From contig NZ_JAAXOQ010000027.1 in assembly GCF_012396015.1 (NCBI RefSeq), positions 1 to 62,579 of the forward strand: a stretch of DNA of 62,579 nt, read 5' to 3'. Of the stretch, positions 4,913-21,101 are shown in pieces (the first letter of the stretch is position 1; each line of letters begins with the position of its first letter). A program made the position numbers and the translations under genes. This stretch comes from Tsukamurella spumae. Its GTDB lineage: Bacteria; Actinomycetota; Actinomycetes; Mycobacteriales; Mycobacteriaceae. Under the pieces are notes generated by a model that was not told the origin of the DNA, ran no database searches, and worked only from the letters and a program-made list of their open reading frames with translations.

Positions 4913-5856
4913 CACTGGTTCCCGTTCAGGTCGAAGTTGAAGATGCCGGAGTCGAAGTCGTTGTAGCGCTCGTACTGCAGGAGCTCGTAGAGCCGGCTGC
5001 GGTGCTGCATCCGCTGCAGCAGCTCCTTCTGCGTGCCCCGAGCCGCGATCTCGCGCAGGCCCTCCTCGGCCGCGAACATCGCCAGGCGCAGCGTCGTGAC
5101 CGGGTAGATCACCGCGTCGTAGCCGATCGACTCGAGGGTGCCGGCGTCCAGGAGATCGGACTTGCCGAACTCGGTCATGTTGGCCAGCAACGGGATGTCC
5201 ACAGCGGCGCGGAAACGTTCGAAATCCGCTGTGGTGTACAGGGCCTCAGTGAAGATCAGGTCGGCGCCGGCGTCGGCGTAGGCCTTCGCCCGCTCGACGG
5301 CCGCGTCGATGCCCTCGATGCCCGCGGCGTCGGTGCGGGCGCAGATGACGAAGTCGGCGTCCCGTCGGGCCGCGACCGCCGCACGGATGCGCCGGGCGGC
5401 CTCGTCGGTCGGCACGACGGCCTTGCCGTCGAGGTGCCCGCATCGCTTCGGATTCACCTGGTCCTCCAGGTGCAAGCCGGACAGGCCCGCGTCCTCGAGG
5501 ACGGTGACCGTGCGGGCCGCGCTCATCGGTTCGCCGAAGCCGGTGTCGGCGTCGACGAGCGTGGGCAGCTCGGTCACGCGGGCGATCTGCTGCGCCCGCG
5601 TCGCGACCTCGGTGAGCGTGGTGAGGCCGATGTCGGGCAGGGCGAGGTCGGCGGCGACCACGGCGCCGGAGACGTACACGCCCTCGAAGCCGATCTCCTG
5701 GATCAGCTTCGCCGTCAACGGATTGAACGCGCCGGGCAGCCGCGCGATCCGATCCGAGGCGAGCGCGGCCCGCAAGGCCTTGCGCTTGTCGTTCGCCGAC
5801 GCACGGGCTGCCAGCAGGCCGCCGGTCGGGTTGACGCCGGTATCGCCGCCGCTCAT
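4912..5856 (-). CDS. prpB: Methylisocitrate lyase
   Basis: Cleaves 2-methylisocitrate into succinate and pyruvate, the last step of the methylcitrate cycle. The 314-residue protein belongs to the isocitrate lyase/PEP mutase superfamily: VDADTGFG at 101-108 contributes metal-binding residues and KRCGH at 137-141 contains the catalytic cysteine in the form typical of PrpB. The reading frame stays open far upstream, but the ATG at 5856, overlapping the prpD stop, gives the family's normal length. Many mycobacteria use isocitrate lyase for this step; here a dedicated lyase is present. Confidence 0.94.
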   Translation of the reverse strand: MSGGDTGVNPTGGLLAARASANDKRKALRAALASDRIARLPGAFNPLTAKLIQEIGFEGVYVSGAVVAADLALPDIGLTTLTEVATRAQQIARVTELPTLVDADTGFGEPMSAARTVTVLEDAGLSGLHLEDQVNPKRCGHLDGKAVVPTDEAARRIRAAVAARRDADFVICARTDAAGIEGIDAAVERAKAYADAGADLIFTEALYTTADFERFRAAVDIPLLANMTEFGKSDLLDAGTLESIGYDAVIYPVTTLRLAMFAAEEGLREIAARGTQKELLQRMQHRSRLYELLQYERYNDFDSGIFNFDLNGNQ

Positions 5857-7358
5857 CAGAACAGCCCCGGGTTCAGCTTCGGGGCGCGGGCGAGCACCTC
5901 GTCGGAGACGGTGAAGGTGAGCTGGTCGAGCTCGCCGGCCCCGAGGGACGGAGTGCGCTGCGCGACGTCGAGGAAGCGCTCCTGCTCGTCCTCGTCGATG
6001 ACGCCGTCGGCGAGGATGCGGAACTTCTCGATGTACTGCTCGCGGGCGAAGGGACGAGCGCCCAGCGGGTGCGCATCGGCCACCGCGAGCTCGTCGACGA
6101 TCACCTCGCCGCTCTTCAAGGTGATCTCGGCGCGGGCGCCGAAGGCCTTCTCGGCGGGGTCGGTCGAATGGTAACGGCGGGTCCACTCGGGATCCTCGGC
6201 GGTGGAGATCTTGTTCCACAGCGAGACGGTGTCGGGCCGCTGCGCGCGCTCGGGGGCGTAGGAGCGCTCGTGGTGCCAGCCGCCGTCCTGCAGCGCGACG
6301 GCGAAGATGTACATCACCGAGTGGTCGAGCGTCTCGCGCGAGGCGTGCGGATCGAACTTCTGCGGGTCGTTCGAGCCGGTGCCGATCACGTAGTGGGTGT
6401 GGTGGCTGGTGTGCAGCACGATCTTCTCGATCTGCTCGAGATCGCCCACGCGCTCGCGCATCCGGCGCGCGAGGTCGATCGGCGCCTGGCTCTGGTACTC
6501 GGCGGAGTGCTCCTTGGTGTACGAGTCCAGGATGGCGCGCTTGGCCTCGCCGGCGCCGGGCAGCGGCACCTCGTAGACGGCCTCGGGGCCGCCGAGCAGC
6601 CACGCGATCACGCCGTCCTCGCCCTCCCAGATCGGTGACGGTGCGCCCTCGCCGCGCATCGCGCGGTCGACGGACTCGACGGCCATCTTGCCCGCGAACG
6701 ACGGGGCGTAGGCCTTCCAGCTCGAGATCTCACCCTTGCGCGACTGCCGAGTGGCGGTGGTCGTGTGCAGCGCCTGACCGATGGCCTGATAGATCGTCGC
6801 GGTCGGCAGGCCCAGCAGCGTACCGATGCCGGCGGCGGCCGAGGGGCCGAGGTGGGCGACGTGGTCGATCTTGTGCTCGTGCAGGCAGATCGCCCGCACC
6901 AGGTCGATCTGGATCTCGTAGCCGGTGGCCAGGCCGCGGATCAGGTCGGAGCCAGTCGAGCCCTGGTGCTGCGCAGCCGCGAGGATCGGCGGGATGTTGT
7001 CGCCGGGATGGCTGTACTCGGCCGCGAGGAAGGTGTCGTGGAAGTCGAGCTCGCGGACGGCGGTGCCGTTGGCCCACGCCGCCCACTCGGGGGAGAACCG
7101 GCCGGGAACGCCGAAGACGGTGGCACCGGGCTGGTACGGGTGGGCGAGCGCCTGCGCCCGCGCATTGGCGACGGGGCGGCGCGTGACGGATGCGGCGGCG
7201 ACCGCGGCGTTGTCGATGATCCGGTTGACCACCATCTCGGCGGTGTCGTCCGGTACCGCGACGGGGTCGGCGGCGACCTCCGCGATCTTCCAGGCGAGGT
7301 GCTCCTCCCGGGGGAAGGACTCGGCTGAGCGACGGGTGCGCACGGTGTGCGTCTGCAC
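5856..7358 (-). CDS. prpD: 2-methylcitrate dehydratase (MmgE/PrpD family)
   Basis: Dehydrates 2-methylcitrate toward 2-methylaconitate; hydration to methylisocitrate is then expected from an aconitase, which is not in this window. The 500-residue protein matches MmgE/PrpD length and carries the family's GATVFG and [11 protein letters not shown] segments near residues 75-125. It starts with GTG at 7358, preceded by AGGAG with a 6-nt spacer. It is the first gene of a tightly overlapping prpDBC operon and is divergent from its probable regulator prpR. Confidence 0.94.
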
Positions 7359-15887: not shown

Positions 15888-15998
15888 GCCACCCGGCAGG
15901 GACCACCGGGAAACCAGGTCATCACCCGGGGCACCCCACCGCGGCGGAGGGTTGCCGGTCAGCAAGCCGGGGCTGCGCGCTGACACTCATGACCTCAT
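15888..15998 (-). promoter_or_regulatory. SAM-IV riboswitch (5' leader of metX)
   Basis: On the minus strand the leader begins GGTCATGAGTGTCAGC, continues through GCCCCGGCTTGCTGACC and GGCAACCCTCC, and closes with GGTGCCCCGGGTGATGACC. The ends pair (GGTCAT with ATGACC) as the P1 stem, the GGCAACCCTCC core is the SAM-binding signature, and a further hairpin (CCCGGTGG...CCGGG) lies 3' as in SAM-IV. The placement directly before metX fits. Assignment is from recalled consensus; boundaries are approximate. Confidence 0.87.
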
Positions 15999-16002
15999 CT
16001 GC

Positions 16003-16008
16003 ATCATA
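16003..16008 (-). promoter_or_regulatory. metX -10 box (TATGAT)
   Basis: TATGAT on the minus strand lies 7 nt before the first P1 base of the riboswitch, so transcription would start at the aptamer edge. No convincing -35 was found. Confidence 0.5.
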
Positions 16009-16072
16009 ACCGACGGATTTCCCGTGAACGAGGTCACAGGTCGAGCCGGGAAGGAGGGAAGACACCGGAGCG

Positions 16073-17269
16073 TTGGACGAACTCGTGGACTCCTCTACCC
16101 GCACCGCGCTCGCGGTCGGCGCCATGGCGCTCGGCGGATTCGGCATCGGCACGACCGAATTCGCGGCCATGGGGCTGCTCCCCGACATCGCGAAGGACCT
16201 GCAGGTCAGCGAGCCGGTCGCCGGGCACGTGATCTCCGCCTACGCGCTGGGCGTCGTCGTCGGGGCGCCGCTCATCGCGGCCGCGTTCGCCCGGGTGCCG
16301 CGCCGGCTGCTGCTGATCGGGTTGATGGTCGCGTTCACCGTGGGCAACGGCCTGTCCGTCTTCGCGCCCGGCTACGGCACCCTCCTGGTGGCCCGGTTCG
16401 TCGCGGGCCTGCCGCACGGCGCCTTCTTCGGGGTGGCCGCGCTCGTCGCCGCGCACCTCGCCGGGCCTGCGGGGCGCGGGCGCGCGGTCGGGCAGGTGCT
16501 CATGGGGCTGTCGGTGGCCAACGTGATCGGGGTGCCGCTGGTGACCTGGCTGGGCAGCGCCTTCAGCTGGCGCTACGCGATGGGCGTGGTCGTGGTGATC
16601 GGCGCCGTCACCGTGGCCGCCCTCGTGGCCTTCCTGCCCGCGGTCAGCATTCCGGTGACCAACCCGCTCACCGAGCTCGGGGCGCTCGCCCGGCCCCAGG
16701 TCTGGTACGCGCTGCTCACGGGCATCGTCGGGTTCGGGGGCATGTTCGCGGTCTACACGTACATCTCCACGACGCTCACCTCGGTGTCCGGCCTGGGCGC
16801 GGGCGCCGTGCCGGTCGTGCTCGCGGTGTACGGCGTGGGCATGGTGATCGGCAACGCCGTGGGCGGCCGCGCCGCCGACCGTTCCGTGATCCGGTCGATC
16901 ACCGCCGCGCTCGGCGCGCTCGCGGTGCTGCAGGCGCTGTTCTCGCTGTTCGCCCCGCAGCCCTTCGCGGCGGTCACCCTGTTCTTCCTCATCGGGCTCA
17001 CCGCCTCGGCGCTCGTGCCGGCGCTGCAGACCCGGCTCATGGACGTCGCGGGCGAGGCGCAGACGCTCGCCGCCACGCTCAACCACTCCGCGCTGAACAT
17101 CGCGAACGCGCTGGGTGCGCTGCTCGGCGGCGTGGTCATCGCCGCGGGCGGCGGCTACACCGCGCCGGCCCTGGTGGGCAGTGGGCTCGCGGTCGCGGGT
17201 CTGCTGGTGTTCGGGGCCGGGGTGCTGGCCGCGCGACGGGGCGCGGAAACTGTCGGTCCCCGTCGGTAG
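16073..17269 (+). CDS. MFS exporter, DHA1 family (AraJ/YdhP-like)
   Basis: A 398-residue, 12-helix major facilitator in the size range of sugar- or drug-efflux DHA1 proteins. The opening GIGTTEFAAMGLLPDIA and the loop ARVPRRLLLIG are typical of the AraJ/YdhP group. The substrate is unknown. The assumed TTG start has AAGGAGG about 15 nt upstream, which is far; GTG at 16085 is an alternative. Divergent from metX, whose riboswitch leader occupies much of the space between. Confidence 0.8.
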   Translation: MDELVDSSTRTALAVGAMALGGFGIGTTEFAAMGLLPDIAKDLQVSEPVAGHVISAYALGVVVGAPLIAAAFARVPRRLLLIGLMVAFTVGNGLSVFAPGYGTLLVARFVAGLPHGAFFGVAALVAAHLAGPAGRGRAVGQVLMGLSVANVIGVPLVTWLGSAFSWRYAMGVVVVIGAVTVAALVAFLPAVSIPVTNPLTELGALARPQVWYALLTGIVGFGGMFAVYTYISTTLTSVSGLGAGAVPVVLAVYGVGMVIGNAVGGRAADRSVIRSITAALGALAVLQALFSLFAPQPFAAVTLFFLIGLTASALVPALQTRLMDVAGEAQTLAATLNHSALNIANALGALLGGVVIAAGGGYTAPALVGSGLAVAGLLVFGAGVLAARRGAETVGPRR

Positions 17270-17272
17270 GGT
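17267..17272 (+). promoter_or_regulatory. -10 box (TAGGGT) of the RNase gene
   Basis: TAGGGT includes the stop codon of the upstream exporter and ends 8 nt before the RNase ATG, so the RNase-barstar-xthA set has its own, probably leaderless, promoter. Confidence 0.5.
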
Positions 17273-17280
17273 CTTGGGGC

Positions 17281-17688
17281 ATGCGAAGGATCCTGGCCCT
17301 CTGCGCGATAGTGGTGCTCGCCGTCTTCGGGCTCGTCGCCTGTGGTAAGTCGGCGGCACAGCCCAGTGCCACCGCGGCGCCGGCCGCGTCGTCGTCACCG
17401 TCGAACTCCGCGGTCCCGCAGCGGGTGCTCGCGACGCTCGCGCGGATCGACGCGGGCACGTGGCCCCCGAACGACGGGTCGGGTACGCAGGGAGGCCGCA
17501 ACTTCGGCAACTTCGAGAACCGGCTGCCCAAGACCGATTCGAAGGGCAGGGCCGCCAAGTACACCGAGTGGGACGTCAACATCAAGAGGTCCGGCCGTGG
17601 GCGCGATGCGGAGCGGATCATCACGGGTGCCGACGGCGGCGCCTGGTACACCCTGGACCACTACAAGACCTTCACGAGGATCAGATGA
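17281..17688 (+). CDS. Lipoprotein guanyl-specific ribonuclease (RNase Sa/N1/T1 family)
   Basis: A 135-residue protein with a lipoprotein signal (lipobox LVAC, Cys21), a Ser/Ala/Pro linker to about 45, and a microbial RNase domain. By alignment with Streptomyces RNase Sa, the catalytic residues are all present: Glu96 in YTEWDV, Arg112 in ERIITG and His127 in YTLDHY. It should cleave single-stranded RNA after guanosine. The lipobox predicts anchoring on the outer face of the membrane rather than free release. The stop overlaps the start of a barstar inhibitor gene (ATGA), the arrangement expected of a toxin and its immunity protein. Processing could later free the domain. Confidence 0.85.
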   Translation: MRRILALCAIVVLAVFGLVACGKSAAQPSATAAPAASSSPSNSAVPQRVLATLARIDAGTWPPNDGSGTQGGRNFGNFENRLPKTDSKGRAAKYTEWDVNIKRSGRGRDAERIITGADGGAWYTLDHYKTFTRIR

Positions 17689-18116
17689 GCACCCTTCCGC
17701 AGTTCCTCCAGTCCGGCTCCGGCGTCGCACTGACCAGCGCCGATCTGGACTCCCTCAAGCGTCGTGACCGGCCCCGGGTGCTCGTGGCCCGCGGCAGCCG
17801 GATGCGCACCAAGGCCGCCCTGCTCAACGAGGTCTCGGCCGTGCTGCAGTTCCCGCTCGACTTCGGCGACAACTGGGACGCCCTCGCGGACAGCCTCGGT
17901 GACCTCGATCAGCTCGGCGGGCAGGCGCTCGTGGTCCTCGGCGTGGCGCAGGCCGAGCAGGTCCTCGCCGATGAGGCCGGTGCCTTCGGCACCTTCGTCG
18001 CCGTCCTCGCGGACCGGGGCGTCCAGGTACTGCTCGCGGTGTCCGACGATGCCGACGGTCCGGCCGTGCGGTCCGCCTGGGCCGCGGCCGGCCTCACGGT
18101 GGAGGCGCTCGCGTGA
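17685..18116 (+). CDS. Barstar-family ribonuclease inhibitor
   Basis: A 143-residue cytoplasmic protein with the barstar hallmark FGDNWDAL at 60-67 and the following acidic segment (DSLGDLDQL) that blocks the active site of barnase/RNase Sa enzymes. It has no signal peptide. It is translationally coupled to the RNase gene upstream (4-nt overlap) and would protect the cell from unexported or incoming RNase. Its own stop overlaps the xthA start. Barstar-like proteins also occur without RNases, but adjacency makes immunity the simplest reading. Confidence 0.88.
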   Translation: MSTLPQFLQSGSGVALTSADLDSLKRRDRPRVLVARGSRMRTKAALLNEVSAVLQFPLDFGDNWDALADSLGDLDQLGGQALVVLGVAQAEQVLADEAGAFGTFVAVLADRGVQVLLAVSDDADGPAVRSAWAAAGLTVEALA

Positions 18117-18919
18117 TCATCACCTCGATCAACGTCAACGGCGTGCGAGCCGCGGTGAAGCAGCGGTCGGAGGAGAACCTCGGCATGCTGCCCTGGCTGC
18201 GCGAGACGAGGGCCGCCGTGGTGCTGCTGCAGGAGGTGCGTGCCACGCACAAGCAGACGCTCGCGGCACTCGCGCCGGCGCTGGAGGAGGGCTGGCACCT
18301 GGCGGCCGCGGAGTCCTCGACGGCCGGTCGCAACGGCGTGGCGGTGCTGTCGAGGGACGAGCCCGACGCCGTGCGGATCGGCTTCGGCAGTGCGGAGTTC
18401 GACGATGCGGGCCGCTACATCGAGGCGGATTTCGGCAACCTCACCGTGGCCTCGCTCTACCTCCCGTCCGGTGACGTCGGTACGGAACGGCAGGACGAGA
18501 AGGACCGCTTCCGGGCGGAGTTCGGGGCGTACCTGGCCACGCTCGGGCGTCGGCGCCGCGAGGTCCTCGTGTGCGGCGACTGGAACATCGGCCACACCGA
18601 GCTGGACATCAAGAACTGGAAGGGCAATGTCAAGAACTCGGGCTTCCTGCCCGAGGAGCGGGCCTGGATGAGCGAGCACATCGGTGACGGACGAGCGTTC
18701 AAGGACGTCGTGCGCGACCTGCATCCCGGCGTTCCCGGCCCGTACGCCTGGTGGTCGTGGCGCGGCAAGGCCTTCGACAACGACTCCGGCTGGCGCATCG
18801 ATCTGCAGATCGCCAACAACGCGCTGGCGAAGCGGGCGTCGTCGGCCGTGGTCGAGCGGGCCGATGCCTACCACCTGCGCTGGTCCGACCACGCGCCGGT
18901 CACCGTCGAATACTCCTGA
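18113..18919 (+). CDS. xthA: Exodeoxyribonuclease III / AP endonuclease
   Basis: A 268-residue exonuclease-endonuclease-phosphatase fold protein that incises abasic sites and resects 3' ends in base excision repair. Family motifs are visible: TSINVNGVRAA at 4-14, LLQEVR near 38, CGDWNIGHTELDIKN near 158, and the C-terminal WSDHAPV with its catalytic Asp-His pair. The GTG start overlaps the barstar stop, so it is probably translated from the same transcript, an unusual partner for an RNase/inhibitor pair. Confidence 0.94.
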   Translation: MIITSINVNGVRAAVKQRSEENLGMLPWLRETRAAVVLLQEVRATHKQTLAALAPALEEGWHLAAAESSTAGRNGVAVLSRDEPDAVRIGFGSAEFDDAGRYIEADFGNLTVASLYLPSGDVGTERQDEKDRFRAEFGAYLATLGRRRREVLVCGDWNIGHTELDIKNWKGNVKNSGFLPEERAWMSEHIGDGRAFKDVVRDLHPGVPGPYAWWSWRGKAFDNDSGWRIDLQIANNALAKRASSAVVERADAYHLRWSDHAPVTVEYS

Positions 18920-18929
18920 GCGCGCGTAG

Positions 18930-20063
<1,134 letters not shown>

Positions 20064-20102
20064 CCGATGTGATGTAGCGAACACCTGCAGGAGGATTCCC
20101 GA

Positions 20103-21101
20103 ATGCTCCAGAAGTACCGCGACAGGTGGCCCTGGTTCGATCACGTGATGGCCGCGGCCATGCGGTACCAGGACAAGAAGGGCGATTACTTCGGCGCCGG
20201 GATCACCTACTTCAGCGTGTTCGCGCTGTTCCCGCTGATCATGGTGGCCTTCGCGGTCGGCGGGTACATCCTGATCAACGACGCCGACCTCCTCGCGGAG
20301 ATCAAGAGCCGGATCGACTCGGCGATCAGCGAAGAGAGCCTGCGCAAGTCGGTCAGCGATCTGATCGACCAGGCCATCGCCTCGCGCAGCACCGTCGGCG
20401 TCGTGGGCCTGGCGGGCGCGCTCTGGGCCGGCCTCGGATGGATGGCGAACGTCCGCGCCGGGCTCACGGAGATGTGGGACAGCGAGGTGCCGAAGCAGAA
20501 CTTCGTCAAGACCAAGCTCGCGGACCTCGGCTCGCTGGCGGGCCTGTTCGTCGCGCTGGTCGCGTGCATCGCCCTGATGATGGCGGGGAGCAGCCCGCTC
20601 ACGAGCAGTATCCTCGACGCGGCGGGACTGGGCGACGTGCCCGGCCTGCCCTACCTGATCTCCGGAGCGACCCTGCTCATCACGCTCCTGGCCATGTGGG
20701 TGCTGTGGACCTTCGTGATCGCCCGACTGCCCCGCGTGCAGTTCCCCTGGCGCAACGCGACCCGCGCGGGCCTGCTCACCGCGGTCGCGTTCATGATCCT
20801 TACGCAGGTCGCGACGCTGCTCATCGGCGGCGTGATGCGGGGGCCCGCCGGCGCGACCTTCGGCCCGATCCTCGGCATCATGCTGTTCATCTACTTCACC
20901 GCACGGATCGTGCTGTTCGCGACCGCCTGGGCCGCCACCGACCCGCGCAACCAGCGCTACGTGATCCCGGCGGCACCGGATCCCGTGGTGATCGCGCCGG
21001 TCATCCGCCAGGAGTCCGATCCGGGACGCGCGGCGATCGCCGGTGCCGCGGGGCTGGTCGCGGGCCTCGGTCTCGGCTCGCTGCTGCGTCGCCGGCGCTG
21101 A
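20103..21101 (+). CDS. yhjD: YihY/BrkB-family inner membrane protein (YhjD-like)
   Basis: A 332-residue protein with about six membrane helices and the family signature GDYFGAGITYFSVFALFPLIM near residues 27-47. YhjD has been suggested as a lipid-related transporter in enteric bacteria; the actinobacterial role is open. AGGAGGATT lies upstream of the ATG. The last 30 residues form a glycine-rich hydrophobic stretch ending in RRRR. It probably shares a transcript with trpS. Confidence 0.85.
   Translation: MLQKYRDRWPWFDHVMAAAMRYQDKKGDYFGAGITYFSVFALFPLIMVAFAVGGYILINDADLLAEIKSRIDSAISEESLRKSVSDLIDQAIASRSTVGVVGLAGALWAGLGWMANVRAGLTEMWDSEVPKQNFVKTKLADLGSLAGLFVALVACIALMMAGSSPLTSSILDAAGLGDVPGLPYLISGATLLITLLAMWVLWTFVIARLPRVQFPWRNATRAGLLTAVAFMILTQVATLLIGGVMRGPAGATFGPILGIMLFIYFTARIVLFATAWAATDPRNQRYVIPAAPDPVVIAPVIRQESDPGRAAIAGAAGLVAGLGLGSLLRRRR

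Follow-up and report, generated by a model that had tools for sequence, protein, structure and literature searches.

What would a guanyl-specific RNase do if it were held at the surface of the cell that makes it, and why would its gene and that of its inhibitor lie beside a gene for a DNA-repair nuclease? The textbook account of barnase and barstar is of an enzyme that is freely secreted and an inhibitor that stays inside the cell, and both questions are raised by a member of the same families in Tsukamurella spumae, in a stretch of 62,579 nucleotides that we refer to as the window and within which all positions are numbered. There a gene for a predicted lipoprotein RNase is followed by a barstar gene and by xthA. 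The preliminary description of this locus offered competition between cells, scavenging of RNA or defence against phage as its role, and called the coupling with exonuclease III unexplained.

The RNase gene and its neighbours in the window

The RNase gene (positions 17281 to 17688, forward strand) runs from an ATG at 17281 to a TGA ending at 17688 and encodes 135 amino acids. Residues 35-134 match PF00545, the N1/T1 (barnase / RNase Sa) family, with E=3.2e-14 and 53.7 bits against a gathering score of 24, and a profile search of the PDB with the RNase matched RNase Sa3, binase, and barnase. In an alignment to barnase the catalytic set falls on E96, R108, R112, and H127, which we take to be the counterparts of E73, R83, R87, and H102 of that enzyme; the guanine-binding loop reads G-N-F-E, its Asn and Glu presumably corresponding to Asn58 and Glu60 of barnase, with F at the position of barnase R59. 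Residues 1-21 (17281 to 17343, forward strand) comprise basic residues, then a hydrophobic core, then L-V-A-C, a typical lipobox that ends with Cys21, and they are followed by a low-complexity Ala/Ser/Pro linker (residues 22-44; 17344 to 17412, forward strand) that the alignment marks as fast-evolving. The product is predicted to be a lipoprotein with a guanyl RNase domain whose catalytic residues are intact, in agreement with the preliminary description on both the catalytic residues and the lipobox. That description had placed the enzyme on the outer membrane face; surface anchoring is indeed what the signal predicts, but the membrane was misnamed, and should be the outer leaflet of the plasma membrane or the mycolate envelope.

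The barstar gene (17685 to 18116, forward strand) encodes 143 amino acids, including an N-terminal extension of about 30 residues, and matches PF01337 over residues 32-111 (E=2.8e-16; 59.7 bits against a gathering score of 23.4). All 30 of the barstar homologs that were aligned match PF01337, and a profile of these 30 matched barstar chains in the PDB; a search of the PDB with the single sequence did not match them. The Asp pair that faces the active site is D65 and D69 in the window, which we take to be Asp35 and Asp39 of known barstar, with D at the position of Y29 and A at that of W38.

The stop codon of the RNase gene and the start codon of the barstar gene share an ATGA (17685 to 17688, forward strand), and the stop codon of the barstar gene and the GTG start codon of xthA share a GTGA (18113 to 18116, forward strand). 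Both of the 4-nt overlaps that had been reported are therefore real. The RNase gene is not fused to the repair gene, as had also been stated; the three are separate open reading frames that overlap and whose translation may be coupled. The xthA gene (18113 to 18919, forward strand) encodes an exonuclease III / AP endonuclease that scores 218.1 bits against the NCBIfam equivalog TIGR00633 (cut-off 99.05; E=1.4e-64), is likewise above the cut-off of TIGR00195, and has 2jc5 as its closest PDB match (E=2.2e-62). Downstream, trpS (19035 to 20063, forward strand; PF00579, E=1e-70) and a gene for a membrane protein, which we take to be yhjD-like (20103 to 21101, forward strand; found at the same place in relatives), mark a conserved host locus. 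Upstream, a gene for an MFS transporter (16073 to 17269, forward strand; PF07690, E=1.6e-44) ends 11 nt ahead of the RNase start; among NCBIfam models it comes closest to Cmx/CmrA efflux pumps, at scores below their cut-offs. A scan of positions 15900 to 20200 gave a single promoter-like site (15980-16007) and nothing resembling a terminator; the transcription unit may begin with the MFS gene. (A search of the 62,579-nt window for tRNA genes found none.)

Conservation in Tsukamurella and distribution of the family

A search for homologues in 61 genomes gave a match in 37. The order RNase-barstar-xthA-trpS-yhjD is present in 15 of 16 Tsukamurella genomes, window included, which rules out an oddity of one genome, and the pair occurs with xthA in other genera as well; in the sixteenth Tsukamurella genome (G007) the contig stops inside the RNase gene. 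Of the 15 Tsukamurella relatives, 14 have the MFS gene ahead of the RNase gene; in G007 none was found there. The RNase-barstar spacing is -4 nt in all 15 readable Tsukamurella loci, window included, and the barstar-xthA spacing is -4 nt in 13 of the 15, the exceptions being G008 (+32) and G014, in which xthA is read in two frames. The recurrence of these spacings across the genus makes a chance overlap unlikely.

Throughout Tsukamurella the pair occupies one fixed locus, and a lipobox-like motif is present in the RNase of all 16 genomes. In 13 of the 16 genomes (G007 being omitted as cut, G008 as divergent, and G014 for the frame break in xthA), dN/dS was 0.22 (RNase core), 0.19 (barstar), 0.12 (xthA), 0.11 (trpS), 0.14 (MFS gene), and 0.25 (yhjD). 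In the same genomes the signal and linker of the RNase have a mean identity of 63% and a dN/dS of 0.40, and the core a mean identity of 87%. The RNase-barstar pair in Tsukamurella is under purifying selection, which disfavours a polymorphic weapon, and we saw no sign of diversification between strains, the same domain being present in all 13 genomes of this comparison.

These results bear on the idea that the pair is a surface-displayed toxin with its immunity protein, in which the tethered RNase would enter neighbours on contact and the barstar would protect kin, like SitA/SitI. To our knowledge, membrane exchange of the myxobacterial type has not been described in mycolate bacteria. The lipobox on the RNase is what such a system might be expected to have, and the order RNase then barstar is that given for incipient toxin-immunity in simple barnase-barstar pairs (available text of PMC3482391), where the Tox-Barnase polymorphic toxins likewise have the RNase gene first and barstar as immunity. 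Another resemblance is to the nuclease SitA of Myxococcus, a lipoprotein toxin that likewise has its own immunity gene; according to the available text of PMC5562445, however, it is a polymorphic toxin whose delivery depends on exchange of outer membrane, whereas no polymorphism was found in the pair described here. Unlike the polymorphic toxins, the pair has no other domain: the 135 residues of the RNase are taken up by signal, linker, and RNase domain, the last being the sole Pfam domain, with no trafficking or repeat domains N-terminal to it. Nor do the single locus and the absence of diversification fit well, and searches of PADLOC-DB with the RNase, the barstar, and XthA gave 0 families each at E up to 0.01. 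Contact-dependent killing by the RNase is possible, yet it is less likely than a role in the producer's own envelope, and overall we consider a toxin-immunity pair improbable. The preliminary description's proposal of phage defence loses ground on the same counts (no PADLOC match, no further Pfam domain, no diversification, and one fixed locus), as does its proposal of contact-dependent competition.

For the wider family, a profile of 22 RNases (A1) was searched against 301 genomes of the taxonomic family at E up to 1e-5 and matched in at least 159 of them. The strong matches (E below about 1e-30) among the matches listed gave a set of 120 loci, window included, which we call the 120 listed loci and which span 16 genus codes (among them g9, Gordonia; g44, Nocardia; g45, Rhodococcus; g10, Prescottella and Rhodococcus; g49, Rhodococcus phenolicus/zopfii; g14, Tomitella; g16, Antrihabitans; and g4, Dietzia). 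(An RHS-borne relative of the RNase was observed in G021, at locus L053; it was left out of the set, as were weaker RNase Sa-like matches.) In broader samples, PF00545 at E up to 1e-6 was present in 14 of 296 genomes at the level of the phylum, 79 of 394 at that of the class, and 103 of 298 at that of the order.

The catalytic E/R/R/H is kept in all 120 listed loci, as is the Asn of the guanine loop, and the Glu of the loop is kept in 94. A barstar gene lies directly 3' of the RNase gene in 116 of the 120 listed loci; the four loci without one are that of G007, where the contig ends, those of a second RNase copy in each of G184 and G281, and that of G294, which does have a barstar, though more distant from the RNase. 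The spacing between the two genes is -1 in 54 and -4 in 46 of the 120 listed loci, as read by choosing the start codon nearest a 4-nt overlap, a rule that is biased to tight overlaps. Across the 116 tallied pairs among the matches listed, position 39 of barstar is D or E in all and position 35 is D in nearly all. Other positions of the RNase-barstar interface differ between lineages; in the raw pattern, R59 is kept mostly with Y29/E39 and, where lost, is often accompanied by H29/D39/F76. These residues look coupled, but on the tree of the 116 pairs no trait was significant once phylogeny was taken into account. Since only 5 independent pairs were available and significance was lacking, the covariation was not counted as evidence of binding.

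The RNase-barstar tree mostly tracks genus, with 15 label changes for 16 groups, which is the minimum. The closest relative of the window on this tree is G001. Tomitella (g14) does not form one group, and G157 (code g51) is nested in Gordonia on a long branch; judged by this placement, its pair may have been gained by transfer.

Predicted anchoring of the RNase, and the adjacent barstar gene

The N-terminus of the RNase could be read in 115 of the 120 listed loci, of which 26 show a lipobox-like motif; the other 89 lack a lipobox but do have a hydrophobic segment. Such segments mostly follow basic residues, are themselves followed by polar or charged ones, and resemble an uncleaved anchor; in g8 the N-terminus is cleavable-looking. 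Beyond Tsukamurella, lipobox-like motifs were seen in 3 of 3 g49, 3 of 5 Tomitella, 1 of 4 Antrihabitans, and 1 of 3 Dietzia loci, in a single g52 locus, and, ambiguously, in 1 Gordonia RNase. The earlier claim that the RNase stays where it is exported extends, as a prediction, to most relatives, which also look anchored by one means or the other. On the best tree the type of anchor switches at least 6 times (the ambiguous L224 being set aside), and it follows that anchoring persists and its means change.

These N-termini also bear on another explanation, in which the pair would be an intracellular toxin-antitoxin or phage-defence module whose RNase would attack the cell's own RNA once the barstar was lost. 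The overlap of the two genes would suit such a module, and the available text of PMC8625414 describes barstar as an inhibitor of intracellular barnase that shields the host from damage. In nearly all members of the family, however, the lipobox or hydrophobic N-terminus points outward, PADLOC has no match to the pair, and the genes keep a stable place beside housekeeping genes; we regard this explanation as very unlikely.

(A crude search for signal peptidase I sites of the form AxA was uninformative, because AxA is present within the hydrophobic segments, and it was replaced by a fixed anchor rule.) The rule is home-made, and its division of transmembrane from cleaved segments is a prediction. 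It assigned the 120 listed loci to transmembrane with barstar (87), lipobox with barstar (25), cleavable with barstar (3), transmembrane without barstar (3), lipobox without barstar (1, at a contig end), and no segment with barstar (1). Applied to 240 unique RNases of Actinomycetota (250 loci less 4 with no hydrophobic segment or fewer than 450 nt downstream and 6 with identical cores), it gave 176 anchored with an adjacent barstar, 13 anchored without, 10 cleavable with, and 41 cleavable without; note that three RNases called transmembrane look cleavable (L065, L328, and L333), that eight Nocardia entries without barstar are ambiguous, and that L251 and L237, called cleavable, may be anchors. 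Counted as 49 clusters at 70% identity, the four classes hold 38, 4, 2, and 5 (Fisher p=0.0012), and on the tree the association was not significant (5 usable independent pairs, median p=0.25). The data are suggestive of a trend in which anchored RNases tend to carry an adjacent barstar and cleavable ones tend not to. The greater frequency of a barstar beside anchored RNases would also suit a toxin-immunity pair. In open-licence papers we found neither a tethered guanyl RNase as the rule nor the co-occurrence of an anchor with an adjacent inhibitor gene.

Set against known systems, the pair shares its RNase family, catalytic set, and barstar-type inhibitor with barnase/barstar of Bacillus amyloliquefaciens and with RNase Sa of Streptomyces. 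The signal of barnase is cleaved and the enzyme secreted (available text of PMC8625414), whereas the RNase of the window is predicted to keep its anchor; and barnase shares no operon with its inhibitor (available text of PMC5021464), whereas here the barstar gene overlaps that of the RNase. The RNases with cleavable-looking signals in our wider sample, those of the Streptomyces Sa type included, are mostly without an adjacent barstar. The same text of PMC5021464 describes a closer parallel, the balifase-YrdF operon of Bacillus licheniformis, in which an RNase and a barstar ortholog share one operon, as here; balifase, unlike the predicted lipoprotein, is secreted with a signal and a propeptide, and an operonic barstar beside a secreted enzyme makes it a counter-example to the trend. 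Exonuclease III is not among the neighbours of the balifase operon given in the available text of PMC5021464. Accordingly, what was already known includes the families themselves (PF00545, PF01337, and TIGR00633), RNase-first pairs (PMC3482391, in the text available), and a Bacillus RNase-barstar operon (PMC5021464, likewise).

The reading that we prefer, and to which we give about an even chance, is that the RNase is tethered in the envelope for turnover or scavenging of RNA and that a cytoplasmic barstar provides safety. RNase and barstar would be made from overlapping genes, with translation coupled through the stop-start overlaps, a coupling that in Tsukamurella would extend to XthA. The RNase would be exported and stay attached to the plasma membrane on its outer side, through a lipidated Cys21 in this case and through a transmembrane-like N-terminal segment in most relatives; in the cytoplasm, the barstar would neutralise RNase molecules that still await export or have been inserted wrongly. 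Once in place, the tethered enzyme would cut envelope or arriving RNA at guanosines. Because the enzyme would be tethered, its products would stay with the producer cell, whether for scavenging of nutrients or phosphate or for clearance of envelope RNA. Among competition, phage defence, and scavenging, we infer that scavenging is the most economical. Secreted relatives in Bacillus, balifase and binase, are induced by phosphate starvation (available text of PMC5021464), and the induction of the balifase-YrdF operon fits what scavenging would lead one to expect. Scavenging does, however, leave the choice of exonuclease III as a neighbour unaccounted for.

Exonuclease III genes at three junctions

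An exonuclease III gene adjoins the pair in 94 of the 120 listed loci, at three different junctions, so that the association is more striking than the preliminary description had it. At the first junction, the pair lies after xthA and before trpS; among the loci read, most of those in Rhodococcus, Prescottella, Nocardia, Tomitella, and Dietzia are of this kind, as are some others, with trpS sometimes further away or beyond the stretch; xthA is directly upstream of the pair in 58 of the 120 listed loci, and at this junction its stop codon is 97-469 nt ahead of the conserved RNase core. The second junction, between the MFS gene and xthA, is that of Tsukamurella (15 loci). At the third, found in all 26 Gordonia genomes, the pair follows def and a gene that we take to be Rv0428c-like; in 21 of the 26, the next gene after barstar, at -4 to +8 nt, is another exonuclease III paralog, xth2, whose product is about 28-34% identical to XthA of the window.

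Genomes in which these sites are empty could be identified for the junctions. In 21 of the 26 Gordonia genomes xthA and trpS lie at most 126 nt apart with no pair between them, and in 8 of 14 genomes without an A1 match they lie within 150 nt of each other (positions hand-counted in both cases; for the empty site, neighbour genes were inspected in L264 and L275-L281). The site of the Gordonia type, with def near xth2 and no pair, is present in 8 of 10 non-Gordonia genomes examined, and in 5 non-Gordonia genomes with def near xth2 the Rv0428c-like gene lies between them. (In the genome of the window, the xth2-like gene is not near def.) The existence of empty sites argues that the pair was placed beside exonuclease III at three places.

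Whether the repair gene matters to the pair is a separate issue, and we are evenly divided over the proposal that it is a bystander, the pair having been inserted in convenient operons near translation genes. This proposal concerns the neighbour and not the function of the pair, and it is compatible with a tethered envelope RNase. Both host loci offer a translation gene, trpS or def, besides exonuclease III, and in several family loci trpS is the sole remaining neighbour. Moreover, 26 of the 120 listed loci have no adjacent exonuclease III gene, although two of these, G007 and G029, are on contigs that are short or cut; five Gordonia genomes keep the pair with no xth2 after the barstar gene, and in two g8 genomes and in G157 the pair is located elsewhere. 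RNase loci of other types or groups had an exonuclease III gene nearby in 0 of 27 and 0 of 92 cases, although these loci lie partly at the same places and their flanks are mostly about 1.5 kb. Against a bystander stands the fact that all three junctions adjoin one of only a few such genes: a Gordonia genome has 3-4 exonuclease III-like matches, and by our own estimate, which assumes 4,500 genes, the odds of a single relocation landing beside one are roughly 2 in 1000. The tightness of the junction also speaks against a bystander, barstar and exonuclease III being -4 to +8 nt apart in all 21 Gordonia genomes that have xth2, and at -4 in 13 of 15 Tsukamurella, by the same choice of start codons, which favours -4.

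At the other extreme, RNase, barstar, and exonuclease III could work together as a single nucleic-acid module in mycolic-acid bacteria. Selection would then have set the pair beside exonuclease III at three junctions and with two paralogs, and, with the RNase tethered at the membrane, a cytoplasmic exonuclease III coupled to barstar would handle damage or 3'-phosphate ends arising from RNA entry or a breach of the envelope. We think this doubtful. The link is too repetitive to dismiss and too incomplete for a module. In open-licence papers we found no report of exonuclease III paired with barnase or barstar genes.

Set against the textbook picture of a secreted barnase, the 120 listed loci represent a natural family that is, by its look, mostly membrane-tethered. 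The trend for an anchor to be accompanied by an adjacent inhibitor gene offers a hypothesis, open to test, on the circumstances under which a nuclease needs its immunity gene to move along with it. That the pair should lie beside a DNA-repair nuclease gene at three chromosomal junctions was unexpected, and the recurrent pairing with exonuclease III is a clue to a possible link between the degradation of envelope RNA and DNA repair in Rhodococcus, Nocardia, Gordonia, and Tsukamurella.

Immediate neighbours of the RNase in Tsukamurella

The MFS gene of the window (16073-17269) ends 11 nt upstream of the RNase, and its nearest NCBIfam models are those for Cmx/CmrA chloramphenicol efflux proteins, against which it scores below the cut-offs. 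On the other side of the RNase, the barstar domain is preceded by an N-terminal extension (window 17685-17777); the alignment indicates that barstars of this family carry such an extension, about 30 residues or more in length, whereas the Bacillus barstar chains matched in the PDB search lack it.

Some Tsukamurella genomes also harbor another RNase, which resembles RNase Sa, has a signal that looks cleavable and adjoins a barstar gene, as read at two loci (L298, G003:C85:6932-7207, and L323, G010:C1:375098-375376). Among the matches listed by the profile search, at least 11 of the 16 Tsukamurella genomes have two RNase matches each; the Pfam search returned a single PF00545 match in the genome of the window.

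Variation in related genera and other relatives

In five Gordonia genomes the exonuclease III paralog xth2 is absent 3' of the barstar, with the RNase-barstar pair still at the def locus (L192 in G138, L164 in G235, L162 in G251, L199 in G259 and L198 in G305). Some Nocardia encode an additional RNase of the same subfamily without an adjoining barstar (loci L078, L080, L086, L089, L095, L115, L118, L134, L195 and L240), possibly a secreted form.

The pair in genome G157 (L244; genus code g51) branches within Gordonia on a long branch and lies at an unrelated genomic place; horizontal transfer into G157 is possible. Note that contig CAJCHX010000470.1 (L091), titled Acidobacteriaceae bacterium isolate BOG_194, carries a Tsukamurella-like RNase adjoining metX, a sequence at odds with the record title; the assembly is probably mixed or mislabelled.

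An RHS-borne relative

In genome G021 (L053, at about 5126-6489), an RHS-like open frame carries at its C terminus a barnase-type domain that is a close relative of this RNase family, and a barstar follows downstream. Because the domain here ends an RHS-like frame accompanied by a barstar, one barnase-type domain seems to serve both as an anchored enzyme and as a toxin tip.
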